Below are positions 2,476-13,564 of a stretch of DNA of 64,000 bases, in pieces. Source of the DNA: Norana najaformis. Lineage: Eukaryota; Annelida; Clitellata; Crassiclitellata; Hormogastridae. The stretch covers positions 14,549,306 to 14,613,305 of the forward strand of contig OZ029921.1 in NCBI GenBank assembly GCA_964023275.1, written 5' to 3'. Each line of letters opens with the position of its first letter. Within the stretch, counting starts at the first letter, position 1. The notes under the pieces are model-generated. The model did no database searches. It saw only the letters and a program-made list of their open reading frames with translations, and was not told where the DNA came from. The position numbers and the translations under genes are program-made.

Positions 2476-4525
2476 CATCATTGTCATCATCATCATAGTT
2501 ACACTATATTGTGTTTTACAGAACGACTTATAGTAATAATTCACTCATTCTTACCCCGCGAAGTATTTTTTACATTAACCTAAAGCATGAATCGTGCAAT
2601 TACGGACCCATCAAGTAAATGTTAGTTTCAAATGAGTAACGCTGTATGTATGTATCTAAACATTCATATAGCGCCTTTAAAAAGGAGCTCACAAAGGAGC
2701 TGAAACACGGTTACCTAACAGATGTTAAAGTTATACCATGAGTTATTTTCGTCAGTAGAGTTCCCATTTTCAGTGAGTACTGTTCTAGAAGGACAGTCCA
2801 ATGCACATAAAAAACGATTTCTGATGTGATGTATGGCAACATGGAACCAACATGTCCCCACGCGCTGATCAGCGCAGTGGTTGTCGTCCACCAGCTGGGT
2901 TGATACATTAACACAGAGCACCCTGATGAATTCTGGAACAGAACCGACCGTCGGTGCCCGGTCGAAGAGGGGGCTTTTCAATTTGAGTTTATCCTCAAGC
3001 GGGAGCCACTGCAGATGGAAGGGGGCAGCATAGTTGTTAAAAACGCTAATTAGAAGTGGTTACCGTTAGTAGGTTTCGGGGTTAAACTGTTCATAGCTCA
3101 GCATGATATGATAAGCTATAAACTCTTTATTTTTTTAACAGCTACAGCAGCATACCAGGCATAATTTAAATTTATAGAGTCTCTGTGTATTAGCATTGTA
3201 CTGTACACGAGCTTGTTTTATTTTGTGTTTGTCTTCAAATTCATTAATTCAACCTCTATAGCCATTTATAATATTGACTTTAGATTGTAAGTTGTTCAGG
3301 TTTTATTTAGTTCAAGTTTTTAAATGTAGAATAAAAATCCGAAGAAGTGAATTGAAAGTAGACTACACGTGCCTCTTGCAATAAGTGATACACACGTATT
3401 GGTCTATTTACTTCTTCATGCTTATTTGTAAATTCACATGCTGTAGACTATTCGTTGTATATGAAGATATATAGCATATAAAGCTCTGCAGAATTCAAGA
3501 TATTGAAAAAATGGTTAATTTGCAGCCAAAGGCTTGACAAGATTTCAGAGTTATTATCAATTTTAATAGACAACAACAACTTAGCAGGAATAACTTTTGT
3601 TCACAGGATCTTTTGTTGTCATCCATCGTCAAGTAAAAGTTATTAACGCAAGTGCCTCTTATGAAAGGCGTCAAACTTAGGGCTCTACATGCACAGTCAA
3701 TAGCAGAGTCGTGTTTTTCATCAAATCTGTTTAGATTAACCACCGAGTCTGATCGAGATATTTATTTAATTACAGAAATATATGCAATTAATTTAGAAAA
3801 CTTTTCAACTCATACATGTTTTCAATTTGAACATTATTAGCTGCCTATTTGGAAATGACAAGTTGAAACATCTGTTATTTTAGATATGTTTTCAATTTAA
3901 TTATATTTACGCTGAGAATGGGAAAACGGAACCATATGATTGAATTAACTAGCTAAATATTTAGAAATTTGAATAAAACTAACATTGTTTTATTAGTGAC
4001 TAAATAGCAAGTAAATTTTATAATATAAGCAATCCCTGTTTAAAATAATGTCACAGTGAAGTTAATACTCTTACAAACTGACTATTAGCGAAAAGGACAA
4101 AAAGGATATACGCTTTCTGCGACAACCCTGCGTTAAGGCCAAATGAGAACATGTCGAACATAAACTAGAGTTAAAATAGATTATAGTTAGTATAATAGTT
4201 AAATGATATCTCTAACCATTTTACTTTTTTAGTTTGGATTATACTTGAATAACAGTTTCCATTAATCAGTGGAGTAATTGTAGGACTTCTATCTGTCCGT
4301 TTACAGTATATTTTCATTTTAAACTTATAGTCAACTGCCTATTTTTAAACGGCAAGTTGAAACATCTGTTGCACTGATATATGTATATTCACAGAGAAGT
4401 GTTCGATCTTTCTATTTAGACTGACACATTTTACAGGGCATAATATTATAAAACTGATTAATGTTATAAAGGTTGTCGTAATAGGTCCTAAGTCTTTAAC
4501 CTGGTCATGACGAAATAGACCTGAC

Positions 4526-4691
4526 CTGTTTTCTGAGCTGTTGACCATTGCTCCTGCGATCGATTGGTCCATGAAAAAGAGCAGAGACAGCGAGAAACCG
4601 AGGAACATCGATCCCATGATGGCCGGCCACGACAACTTCTCGAGCTGCGCTGGGGTGAAGACCTCGCCACTGATCAGCTTAAACTTCTCTA
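4526..4691 (-). CDS. SLC4A11: SLC4A11 exon, LLFFMDQ helix
   Basis: Reads LEKFKLISGEVFTPAQLEKL, SWPAIMGSMFLGFSLSLLFF, then MDQSIAGAMVNSSENR, against human [20 protein letters not shown] and NAPENR. Acceptor TTGATAG|TA is needed for phase; the later AG would give a stop. Donor AACAG|GTCAGG, phases 1 to 2. A 20-bp tandem array begins about 22 nt upstream of the acceptor. Confidence 0.96.
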
Positions 4692-4712
4692 CTATCAACA
4701 CACACCAGCAAG

Positions 4713-5035
4713 CTAAGGCGAGGTAAGTTATAATAAGGCAAGGAAAGTTATAATAAGGCAAGTTAAGTTATAATAAGGCAAGGGAAGTTATAATAAGGCA
4801 AGGAAAGTTATAATAAGGCAAGGGAAGTTATAATAAGGCAAGGAAAGTTATAATAAGGCAAGGAAAGTTATAATAAGGCAAGATAAGTTATAATAAGGCA
4901 AGGCAAGTTAAGTTATAATAAGGCAAGGAAAGTTATAATAAGGCAAGATAAGTTATAATAAGGCAAGGTAAGTTATAATAAGGCAAGGTAAGACAAGGTA
5001 TTTTGTAATAAGGCAAGGCAAGTTATAATGGATTC
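4713..5035. repeat. 20-bp minisatellite beside a splice acceptor
   Basis: About 16 copies of a 20-bp unit, AAGGCAAGGAAAGTTATAAT with small variants, in strict 20-bp phase for most of the array. On the minus strand each unit reads as a pyrimidine run plus TTATTATAAC, and the array ends about 22 nt before the acceptor of the exon at 4526..4691. Confidence 0.95.
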
Positions 5036-5412
5036 GATGGAGGAAGGGCGAAGAGAGTCTTTGGAGTGGCAATGACCGTCAACTATGGAAGGGGTGAACT
5101 ACCTACTAGTTGAGAATGTTGTCAAAACCTCGTAAATAGCATTTTTTGCGAAATGCGTTTTATTAATAAATTACTTGCATCATTGCGCATTTTATGCAAA
5201 GGCTCGAATTCTTTTCACAAATGGAATGAATTCATTCGGCGTATTTTTTCCGTCTTTTGCAACATTTCAATCTGTTGAAATTCATTTAATTTGACATTAC
5301 ATAAGTATAATACAATAATATATTAGTAGTAATAGTGTTCTTGTAACTGCAATTTCGTGAAATACTGTTTTCAATTCCATGCATTCGCAGAATTTCATAA
5401 AATTCAATTACC

Positions 5413-6526
5413 CACTGTAACAAATTTTAATAATTTTTTCCTGGGTAGTAAGTGTTATTTCCTAATTGCGTATGCCTCAAAAGTATAGAAAATGGCTGTT
5501 ATTTCTCAAAAACTTTGGTTTTGTGACTAGGACAGTAATATTCTGAAATTTGCCTACTTTACAAAAACATTCAAGATGAATTCAGTGCTGAGTAAACTTG
5601 GAGTAACTGCTAGAACTTTCTAGAACTTTTGAGAATATTCTAGAACGTCCGAGAACCTTCTGGAACTTTCCAGAAATATATAACTAGCAGTATAAATACA
5701 GTTCAGTTTAGTTGTAGCTGCATAAGTGGATACATATCTAAGATGGTATCAAAAAGGCTGCAAGCATCCGGCAGACGCATTTTGCTATGTCTGCGGTCAA
5801 TTTATCAAGACAAGAGCGAAAAAGTACTCCGTGGAAGCATCTGTGAAGCCTACATGTGAAGCATGCCTGTTGGGGATCAAGACAAACCCTGAGCACCTCA
5901 TTTCACCTGCGAGCACTGCAAAAAATGCTGGAGGTAGATTGAACAATTGATATTCGCTTATGTGGCGACATTTTATGTTATAAAAGTTTTAAAAGTTTGA
6001 AATGTTGTAATTTCACAATTTTTTAAAAGCTTCAAAGTTATCGAACAGCTATGATGTATGAATATGCTGCGAGAATGTCTTATACATTAGTCATGGGGGA
6101 AATACATGTTTTATTATCACAATTTCATTTTATTCAGGATATACTGGACTTTGAACGTCGCTACCAAGGACAGAATAAAGAGAGCAGGATGGGAGACTAC
6201 ATTTGGGGCTGATTCGTAAAATTGATTTACAGTATAATCGTAAATCTCGAAAAAACTACTCACTCCTAAATCGTTTGTGGTCAATTTTGTATAACTGTAG
6301 TGTAAATACATGATAATATTGATTTATATATTGTTATTTTTACTTTATTTGCACGAAAACACGCAAATTCGCCTGTTTCTTCATTGGATATAGGTAAATT
6401 TCGAAATATCGTTGTCCTGGTCACAAAAGCAAAGCTTGAAGGGAATAACAACCATTTTGTATACTTTTGAGGTATAAGCAAGTAAGAAATAACACTACCC
6501 AGGCACAAAAATTGTGTTACTTAGTG
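5413..6526 (+). mobile_element. internally deleted transposon with long terminal inverted repeats
   Basis: The ends are inverted copies of about 110-150 bp. CCTGGGTAGT...GTTATTTC at 5441 pairs with GAAATAACACTACCCAGG near 6486, and the match runs on through CTCAAAAGTATA and AAATGGCTGTTATT. The extreme ends are CACTGTAAC and GTTACTTAGTG. Inside is a promoter-like segment (5611..5700) and a broken coding fragment (about 5735..5950) with CKHPADAFCYVCG and a GDQDK-like segment. I recognise these from a multicopy invertebrate transposon protein of uncertain class. No clear target duplication. It lies antisense inside an SLC4A11 intron. Confidence 0.8.
5611..5700 (+). promoter_or_regulatory. heat-shock-element array with TATA box
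   Basis: Seven decamers in strict 10-bp phase place GAA and TTC alternately with exactly two bases between: GAAct, TTCta, GAAct, TTTga, GAAta, TTCta, GAAcg, TCCga, GAAcc, TTCtg, GAAct, TTCca, GAA. Eleven of the 13 units are perfect. A TATA-like TATATAA follows at about 5677 and TATAAATA at 5691. This is the layout of an HSF1-driven promoter. The transposon coding fragment begins about 40 bp further on. Confidence 0.8.
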
Positions 6527-7488
6527 TTATTAGCCTAATTTCAGTGAGGCAAAATAGAAATTCATTTTATGGCAATTTTTTTCAATTTTTCTAGCTGTTA
6601 ATGATGCTTTCCCCTTCCAGTAAAGTTTCAAGAAACCTACTTATTAGGTTTTGCAAGCCCACCGACTATATATGTATATGTATATATAGGCTTATTGTTG
6701 AATGTTTTGATATTGATTGATGCACTGTCTTGTCAGTTTCTCGTCATTGAAAAATAGTAGTAATATCCCATCTCTTCTCTATGCTGTGGACTAGAATAAA
6801 TGACGTACAAGTGGAAGTTGTGGCATCGTGCACTTGGATCGCGGACTATTAGAAACACAATTATTTCAGAGTAATGGTTTTACCGCAGTATTTACAGGAC
6901 GAGGACTAAACCAAAGACTTGATTGGCAAATATTGGACAGAGCTCTCTATTGTACTGTGATACTAAAGATGACTTCGAAAAGTTGCTTCGTTGATTATGA
7001 GCCGTTGTGTACAGGGCAACAGACAGCTTAAGGACTGATCATCACCATTTAGCGAATAAAATACAATTTTTTATTTTTAACATACAATGTTCTTATGACA
7101 ATAAAACAGCACTGCACCCTGTATAGTCGCAAAAGTACAAACTGCACAAAAGAGCAAAGCTGGAATACGTACTTGAAATATAAAATCAGAGGAAGAACAA
7201 AAACCGATATCGATATCCCAACATTTAATTACAGAAACCGAATTCGGTTTTCTTTTTTACCAAGAAAAACGCTACCGACTTTAAACATCGACACCGATCA
7301 AATTCTAATGAACTCTAGAATTCTCGTTTGAAGGGATCATCGCAGCTCTGTTACGCTGATATTGCTACTGTCCAAATTTTGCGAGCCAGCTGATGTCCTC
7401 GGCATATGTCCGAACTTGTATTTATACCCTAGCATGGATATATGCCACTTATATATTAGTAAAATAGCCGAAAATATAAACCACTTAC

Positions 7489-7832: not shown

Positions 7833-7964
7833 CACCATCAGTGCAATTAGCACCGTGCATCAGAGCCATGCTTTAACACCATCAGTGCAATTAGCACCGT
7901 GCATCAGAGCCATGCTTTAACACCATCAGTGCAATTAGCACCGTGCATCAGAGCCATGCTTTAA
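7833..7964. repeat. 44-bp tandem repeat, three copies
   Basis: Three essentially identical 44-bp copies in a row (starts 7833, 7877, 7921), each containing CACCATCAGTGCAATTAGCA and GCATCAGAGCCATGC. In the 567-bp intron between the exons at 7489 and 8163; nothing else is seen in that intron. Confidence 0.95.
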
Positions 7965-8162
7965 CACCTTTACGTTCCGTTATAGACCCGGTGCTTCAAG
8001 TTAAACCATGCAGCATATAGAAAAAAAGGTTGTATGGTTGCACGGTTGTTGGACACGTGATGTCGATTTTGCACTTCAGGCTGAAATAATTTTCAGCTTA
8101 AGATCCGAGCTCTTTTGAATGAGGCTTCCAATAAAAAACAGAGATTGCAGCAAATGACTTAC

Positions 8163-12104: not shown

Positions 12105-12317
12105 TATCATCATCATCATCATCATCATTATCGTCATCTTCGATGTCAGTCCACTACACACTTCATCGTCTCTATTCGGCTGCTTCCTCCAGGGTAAGTG
12201 AGCGGTTTTTAAAATCTGAAATGAGACCTGTCGCAATTAACACACGGTTGCGCTGTCGGGTCAGCTTGCGTTACGCATTAAAGTGCATTTAAAGTGATAT
12301 GCCAAATATCTGTTTAC
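11183..12317. other. SLC4A11 intron
   Basis: Holds one long (ATC)n microsatellite at 12032..12134; the rest is unrecognised. The open frames over the microsatellite are only repeat translations. Confidence 0.6.
12032..12134. repeat. (ATC)n microsatellite
   Basis: About 34 ATC units with a few TTATC and CC interruptions. Confidence 0.97.
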
Positions 12318-12431
12318 CTTTAGTGTACAGAGCCAGCGGAGCTGTAGTTAATAGGATGACCATCGGCTGACCACCACAAATGGCGAAAAATATGCCTCCG
12401 ATTGTCTGAGAGTAGATAACTTTCTTTACAT
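12318..12431 (-). CDS. SLC4A11: SLC4A11 exon, membrane helices with GGQP...TTAPLA
   Basis: Encodes [20 protein letters not shown] then [18 protein letters not shown], against human [20 protein letters not shown] and [10 protein letters not shown]. This is one of the most conserved parts of the SLC4 transport core. Acceptor TTTTCAG|AT, donor AAAG|GTAAAC, phases 1 to 1. Confidence 0.97.
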
Positions 12432-13564
12432 CTGAAAAAAGAGCATTTATTTAGCTACAGAATATAGAGGCGCCCGTCTACTGCTGCAACAGTTCTAAGG
12501 TTAGCAAACTACTGACAACTTAATATTTGCTGTTTTAAATGCGTCGCCTGCATTGTATTCCACTTAACACTCATTCTCAGAAGTTCTGCGAAGGTTTTTT
12601 AAAACTAATTCAATGAAAAATCTAAATGATCAGTCTATATATTCACTACGGGTGTCTGCAGTATTGTAGTTAATAAAACACCAACATTAGATATGTTACG
12701 TCAATGAACAGTTTGGCCACACTTTCTGTGTGGTCGTTGTTGATTACGAATGCGTTCGCCTTTCACCTCTGTTTCATGGTCCCGATCGGTGCTTCTCGTG
12801 GGCTGACAATTTGTGTAAAGCCACATAACCTAGTCCGTAAGGGAAGGGAAGGGAAGGTCGGTAAGGTTGTTTTGTAAATGCTTCGGTCCATAGATTATTT
12901 AAATAACTCTCGTCATTTATTAAGAGAGGTGTATGATGAATGACTGGATGCCTTGGCTTATCTTATCTCATCTAATCTGGATCTGTTTTTGACCAGCAAG
13001 CAATCAGCGATGTTTTATTCACCTGAATGCAGTCTACGCCTACTGATCAAACATTCATGCTGCTTTTTCAGGGGCCTCTCAAAAGCGCCAGAATGAGTGC
13101 AGTCAGAAAGCGGTAAGCGCCTGTTATTCTGTTCTCAAAGCTTCAATTATTAAAGTTTTCAAATAACGGTAATCGTTTTAAGAATCCCCTGGTCACTTGC
13201 GGTCACGATCTGGCAACGCAGCCTCTCTGCGATTGCAATGAATAAGACATGAAGTAGAATGGAACAAAACAGTCTGTTCCATCGTCAGTTCGTCGTTCTA
13301 TCCATCCTTTTGTCCTTCCTTTCTCCTATTCATCCATCCTTCCAGTTGTCATTTCTTTGCTTCGCTCGTTCTATTTGTCCGTCATTCCATCTCTCCATTT
13401 TTGGTCCTCCCGTTCTCCTATTCATCCACCGTTCCATTTTTCCTTTCTTTTATCCCTCCGTTTTTCTATTCATCCATCGTTCCATCTTTCCTTTTTGTTC
13501 CGGCAATTCTTCTATTCGTCCATCGTTCTCTTGTGTGTCTGTTCGTGCGTAGTCAGCCACTGAC
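12432..13564. other. SLC4A11 intron
   Basis: Includes a run of GGGAAGGGAA near 12840 and a degenerate CCATCCTTTCTATTC-type pyrimidine repeat from 13280 to 13530, which keeps several frames open without coding meaning. Confidence 0.5.

Follow-up and report, generated by a model that had tools for sequence, protein, structure and literature searches.

The window analysed here is a 64-kb stretch of the genome of the annelid Norana najaformis (contig OZ029921.1, positions 14,549,306 to 14,613,305), in which positions are counted from the first base. It contains a copy of a DNA transposon bounded by terminal inverted repeats (TIRs), and this copy carries an array of heat shock elements (HSEs), which are written in the nGAAn code of heat shock factor (HSF). 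Read unit by unit, the array alternates between GAA and TTC for 13 units at a 5-bp step; 11 of them match perfectly and two deviate, unit 4 as TTT and unit 8 as TCC, and the longest strictly perfect run is five units. An HSE array consists of at least three nGAAn units in alternating orientation and 5-bp phase, which is what was found here. An earlier note on this DNA had described thirteen units, 11 of them perfect, in strict phase at 5611..5700; the array itself was confirmed, and its boundaries were corrected to 5613-5675. When scored with a GAA-first 13-unit template the array matched at 37 of 39 core bases, the best value in the 64 kb, whereas the best score among 60 order-1 resamples of the window was 25, in agreement with the claim that random DNA would not yield such an array. 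No second run of at least four perfect units was found elsewhere in the window. The array is followed by two TATA-like sequences and, 67 bases after its end, by the start codon at 5743, so that the TATA box and the start of a coding fragment described before were both seen. The TATA-like sequence adjoining the array reads TATATAA in the window copy and ATATAAATA in the family consensus; the intact one of the window copy is TATAAATA.

As the earlier note had stated, the element is bounded by long inverted repeats: the arms 5436-5556 and 6391-6511 are 78% complementary, and the copy is flanked by TTA on both sides. Its first transposase exon, the reading frame of which is broken, is followed by the splice-donor-like sequence GTAGAT. 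Through an internal deletion the window copy has lost the middle that longer copies retain, query base 723 now adjoining the final part; it is therefore unable to make transposase.

In a similarity search of the whole genome, 40 of 531 candidate places were scored, and all 40 (L001-L040) were read as the family sample. With the window copy set aside, identity to the query is 78-90% in the main matches, and divergence from the family consensus has a median of 5.6% (range 1.8-9.6%). Promoter alignment revealed a recognisable array in all 40 copies, which had been fetched by whole-element similarity. At least three consecutive perfect units are present in 39 of them and at least five in 31; the number of perfect units per copy varies from 5 to 12 of 13, and the longest perfect run across the copies is nine. 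A search by promoter similarity added 14 copies, of which 13 have at least three and seven at least five consecutive perfect units. The question raised earlier, whether other copies keep the decamers, can thus be answered in the affirmative. In the consensus, 12 of the 13 units are perfect and the array, which is followed by ATATAAATAGCAGTATAAATACAG, has the left inverted repeat before it and two TATA boxes after it. The right end of the array together with both TATA boxes occurs, with up to three mismatches, at 162 places in the genome and at none in the reversed control.

Of the 40 copies, 14 allowed both termini to be located, and eight of these measure 2.3-2.7 kb and six 0.7-1.9 kb; L006 and L032 were excluded from end placement because their end matches were spurious. 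The commonest termini in the other copies are CACCGTGTAAC... and ...CTTAGTG. Identical 3-bp flanks were found in six of the 14 copies, the window copy included (TTA in two, TAA in three, AAA in one), and the flanks differ in the other eight. Two additional copies, L092 on C15 and L094 on C8, represent the same insertion on different chromosomes; their flanks are similar and include related open frames of 124 residues, which suggests a segmental duplication that took the element along.

The contribution of the family to the long HSE arrays of the genome was estimated by exact pattern searches. Six perfect units gave 71 forward matches and the reversed control one; a single strand suffices for this count, as the pattern is its own reverse complement. 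The 50 matches listed correspond to 43 distinct places, of which 41 carry the flanking DNA of the element. One of the two others (L071/L100) is found upstream of an Hsp90 frame (PF00183, 7.7e-13), approximately 1.7 kb from its likely start, and thus serves as a host control, showing the same code at a heat gene of this genome. The other (L074/L101, C9:331556-331983) contains two perfect runs, one of four and one of six units, in a space of about 55 bp, and no gene was identified near L074. Seven perfect units gave 70 rows, every one of which was listed, against none in the control. Sixty-eight of these are within three mismatches of the family array, a distance that random spacers reached in 54 of 5000 cases; as for the remaining rows, L095, at four mismatches, is a family copy by its flanks and L102 is unrelated. 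Five perfect units matched 344 times (control: 10), and among the 100 matches listed 97 differ from the family array by two mismatches or fewer, as did 176 of 5000 arrays with random spacers, the other three being at three mismatches, a distance without discriminating power in this comparison. Most of the listed arrays of at least six perfect units in this genome are therefore held by the family.

The genome has four matches to the HSF DNA-binding domain, three of them nearly complete; one is strong (1.2e-19) and two are weaker. Upstream of three Hsp70-family genes (4.4-4.5 kb each) there are at most three consecutive perfect units, and upstream of Hsp90 there are six, in a comparison from which promoters behind 5' introns could escape. 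The claim that the array is stronger than many heat-shock gene promoters was tested on these few genes.

Classification of the element relied on its ends and on short motifs. According to PMC12730594, the EnSpm-Mirage-Chapaev-Transib (CMCT) clade comprises EnSpm/CACTA, Mirage, Chapaev, Transib, Plavaka, ESTA and Lanisha, together with RAG1, and is defined by C(2)C and H(3-4)H motifs between the second D and the last E. By eye, such motifs can be recognized in the family fragments (PCYLC, KVHILDAH) and in the frames of sister families with related proteins (CFLC, and KVHYLHSH or KMHFLHSH); the catalytic D and E were likewise assigned by eye. The common termini have the 5'-CA..TG-3' form of the clade, the left end of the window copy having drifted (CCCACTG), and the 3-bp flanks fall within its 2-5 bp range of target-site duplications. 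Structure prediction gave no usable fold for the family's own transposase fragment; a sister transposase is tentatively predicted to adopt a RAG1/Transib-like fold. The assignment extends to the clade and to no named lineage within it. No accepted Pfam match was obtained for the family fragments or for the first sister protein; the best matches to the fragments, GRAS (2e-4) and DUF2789 (0.006), are below the cut-off and were dropped as chance. Searches of NCBIfam with the two sister proteins and of phages with a sister protein gave no match, and sequence searches against solved structures gave nothing convincing. The Transib superfamily proper makes 5-bp target-site duplications and was rejected, since the duplications here are 3 bp. 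Helitrons have neither TIRs nor target-site duplications and encode a Rep/helicase protein; a Helitron with HSEs was likewise rejected, as this element has TIRs and target-site duplications and the sister protein looks RAG/Transib-like.

Taken together, these observations suggest that the array is probably the HSF-driven promoter of a TIR DNA transposon family with a RAG1/Transib-like (CMCT) transposase. By sequence and analogy, the most likely course of events is that a cut-and-paste transposon of CMCT type took on an HSF-driven promoter. In such a system heat or proteotoxic stress would release HSF, trimers of which would bind the array cooperatively (13 units would accommodate about four trimers), and bound HSF would activate the TATA promoter beside it. 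Transposase would then be produced under stress, now or in the past while the family was still mobile. The window copy and similar deletion derivatives keep the array and would serve only as non-autonomous carriers of HSF sites, and that host genes receive working HSF sites from the copies is a possibility only. We infer from the sequence every step that goes beyond the anatomy of the DNA, HSF binding and heat induction included.

The most serious alternative, which we nevertheless regard as unlikely, is that the array is a tandem decamer repeat grown by replication slippage without any regulatory role, its likeness to HSEs being a by-product of a near-palindromic unit. Exact 10-bp losses in four copies (L016, L018, L023 and L039) and a 30-bp loss in one (L013) fit slippage, and the present-day decay of the array, described below, is neutral, as this explanation would have it. 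The decamers, however, vary in their spacers and not in their cores: comparison of the six decamers of the consensus array showed differences in 1 of 36 core cells but in 8 of 24 spacer cells (Fisher p 0.0019), a pattern to be expected if GAA/TTC was maintained during the ageing of a working promoter in an active lineage. The position of the array directly before two TATA boxes and an open reading frame, and the 2-bp spacing identical to that of the array upstream of Hsp90, also speak against this explanation. It is considerably less probable still that the array represents subterminal binding sites of the transposase, serving transposition and not transcription. Subterminal transposase sites are known in the En/Spm and Ac elements, subterminal repeats are common in the CMCT clade, and the element has CMCT-type features. 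Against this, the array is one-sided, since with the same template only shifted registers of the array score above 25/39 in the window, and that value is the upper limit of the random range; it lies inward of the left TIR, beside a TATA box; its unit is exactly the HSF code; and no HSE array was found in five sister families with related proteins, of which one copy each was scanned over 0.7 kb up to the GDQDK motif (best 13-unit scores 18-21/39), a scan that a promoter behind an upstream intron would escape. The last result also led us to reject the array as a common trait of the transposase group, on a small sample of one copy per family. We give an equally low chance to a promoter driven by another factor with an inverted nGAAn code or by an HSF other than HSF1 (for example in the germline), with a developmental trigger instead of heat. 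There are four HSF-domain matches in the genome, and HSF5 is reportedly a germline HSF (PMC11059408), but the same code is present upstream of Hsp90, a classical heat gene.

Several points weigh against a heat-driven promoter and should be set beside the evidence in its favour. Unit 8 of the consensus array is TCC, and the decamer test comprises only six decamers. None of the 40 copies, some of which were fetched short of their far end, showed an intact transposase frame, and the family may therefore be extinct. Among the 40 inserted copies, 65 of 1430 core cells and 41 of 773 spacer cells have changed at non-CpG sites (p 0.47), and the flanks of the array have changed at 5.3-5.4% (core versus flanks, p 0.22). 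Core and spacer thus decay alike, which indicates that the persistence of the array in today's copies reflects shared ancestry and not present selection. When CpG sites were included, a difference between core and spacer appeared (80 of 1505 versus 73 of 926 cells changed, p 0.013), which was left unused because it disappeared once these sites were removed. Selection on today's copies was accordingly rejected, as the core has no protection relative to the spacer. The copies therefore decay neutrally once inserted, and the array belongs to the promoter of the parasite; with neutral decay, there is no sign here that the host preserves the sites.

The coordinates of the features in the window are summarized in Table 1. 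The transposon sits antisense to the host gene, between two exons of the SLC4 family, the nearer of which has a PF00955 match (1.5e-5) just below the cut-off and the other one above it. The earlier placement, antisense in an SLC4A11 intron, holds with respect to orientation and to the SLC4 family, that is, at family level only. A 20-bp repeat (TAAGGCAAGGTAAGTTATAA) occurs about 14 times at 4714-4992, beside the probable SLC4 exon, and a 44-bp tandem repeat (3.1 copies, 100% match) is located at 7833-7968.

Table 1. Transposon copy, HSE array and host gene exons in the 64-kb window
Feature	Position	Strand	Basis or detail
Open frame with probable exon of host SLC4-family gene	4345..4767	-	PF00955, 24.4 bits (cut-off 27)
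Target-site duplication TTA, left	5408..5410	.	
Whole transposon copy, 1116 bp, internal-deletion derivative	5411..6526	+	Similarity to 40 scored copies; longer copies 2.3-2.7 kb
Left terminal inverted repeat, starts CCCACTGTAAC in window copy	5411..5556	+	Inverted arms and comparison of termini
HSE array, 13 units, 11 perfect	5613..5675	.	Unit reading and template score
Two TATA-like sequences	5678..5698	+	TATATAA 5678-5684; TATAAATA 5691-5698
First transposase exon, reading frame broken, encodes YVCGQFIKTRAKKYSV...	5743..5933	+	Comparison with exon of relatives
Last-exon remnant (QDILDFERRYQG...GDYIWG), brought in by internal deletion	6136..6212	+	
Right terminal inverted repeat, ends CTTAGTG	6391..6526	-	
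Target-site duplication TTA, right	6527..6529	.	
Further exon of same SLC4-family gene	12289..12450	-	PF00955, 8e-9

The promoters of two sister families contain palindromic sites of other types. One family (L103, L110-L113) is abundant, and the five copies read are near-identical in their overlaps (one substitution). The L103 promoter has seven TGCTGA/TCAGCA half sites where 0.44 are expected, and one pair of these forms TGCTGAAGTCAGCA, nine bases before TATATAAA; the arrangement is present in all four copies that reach this region, the fifth having been fetched short. We take TGCTGAAGTCAGCA to be like a Maf recognition element (MARE-like). L108, of the same MARE-like family, holds a 520-residue open frame. 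In the second family (L106, L114-L116) all four copies read contain GCTGACGTCAGC with the full core TGACGTCA of a cyclic AMP response element (CRE), approximately 13 bases before a box of the TATATAAGG type, which is AATATAAGG in a single copy. For the three remaining sister families, one copy each was scanned, solely for HSE arrays and TGCTGA half sites; the half sites number none in L104, none in L105 and two in L107. A 23-bp segment directly upstream of the HSE array (ATGAATTCAGTGCTGAGTAAACT, window 5576-5598) recurs inverted, at 21 of 23 bases, in the L103 promoter (oriented 242-264). That each of three families has a palindromic factor-type site of its own before TATA is a lead, not a result. 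The wider idea, that families of one transposase group each captured their own host stress or signalling pathway, were amplified by it and spread distinct regulatory sites, seems rather doubtful to us.

Heat-responsive transposons are already known from Caenorhabditis Helitrons and from a plant retrotransposon. An HSE array in a transposon of RAG/CMC type was not found in the literature searched, which was mostly open-access and covered by best matches only. If the proposed HSF-driven promoter is real, the heat-responsive trait would have arisen independently in another, cut-and-paste and RAG-like, class of transposons, and the family would offer dozens of natural insertions for asking whether transposons rewire the heat-shock response. 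The nearest precedent is in Caenorhabditis, where according to Garrigues et al. 2019 (PMC6927752) HSF-1 binds the HSEs of Helitrons and their transposase is heat-induced; the mechanism proposed here would be similar. In C. elegans between 46% and two-thirds of the HSEs belong to Helitrons, and among the genomes which the authors compared the enrichment was seen only in Caenorhabditis. Those Helitrons resemble the present family in having clustered HSEs in their own transposase promoter, in contributing a large share of the HSEs of the genome (the shares refer to different HSE lengths and are not comparable), and in consisting mostly of decayed, non-autonomous copies. They differ in that they are rolling-circle elements with HSF-1 chromatin immunoprecipitation and heat-expression data, whereas the element described here has TIRs, makes target-site duplications, has a sister transposase that looks RAG/Transib-like and is known from sequence. 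ONSEN, a copia retrotransposon of Arabidopsis (PMC3907296; also named in PMC6927752), likewise uses the heat-stress response of its host for transcription, as would the present family; in contrast to this DNA transposon, it is a plant retrotransposon and its heat response was shown experimentally.
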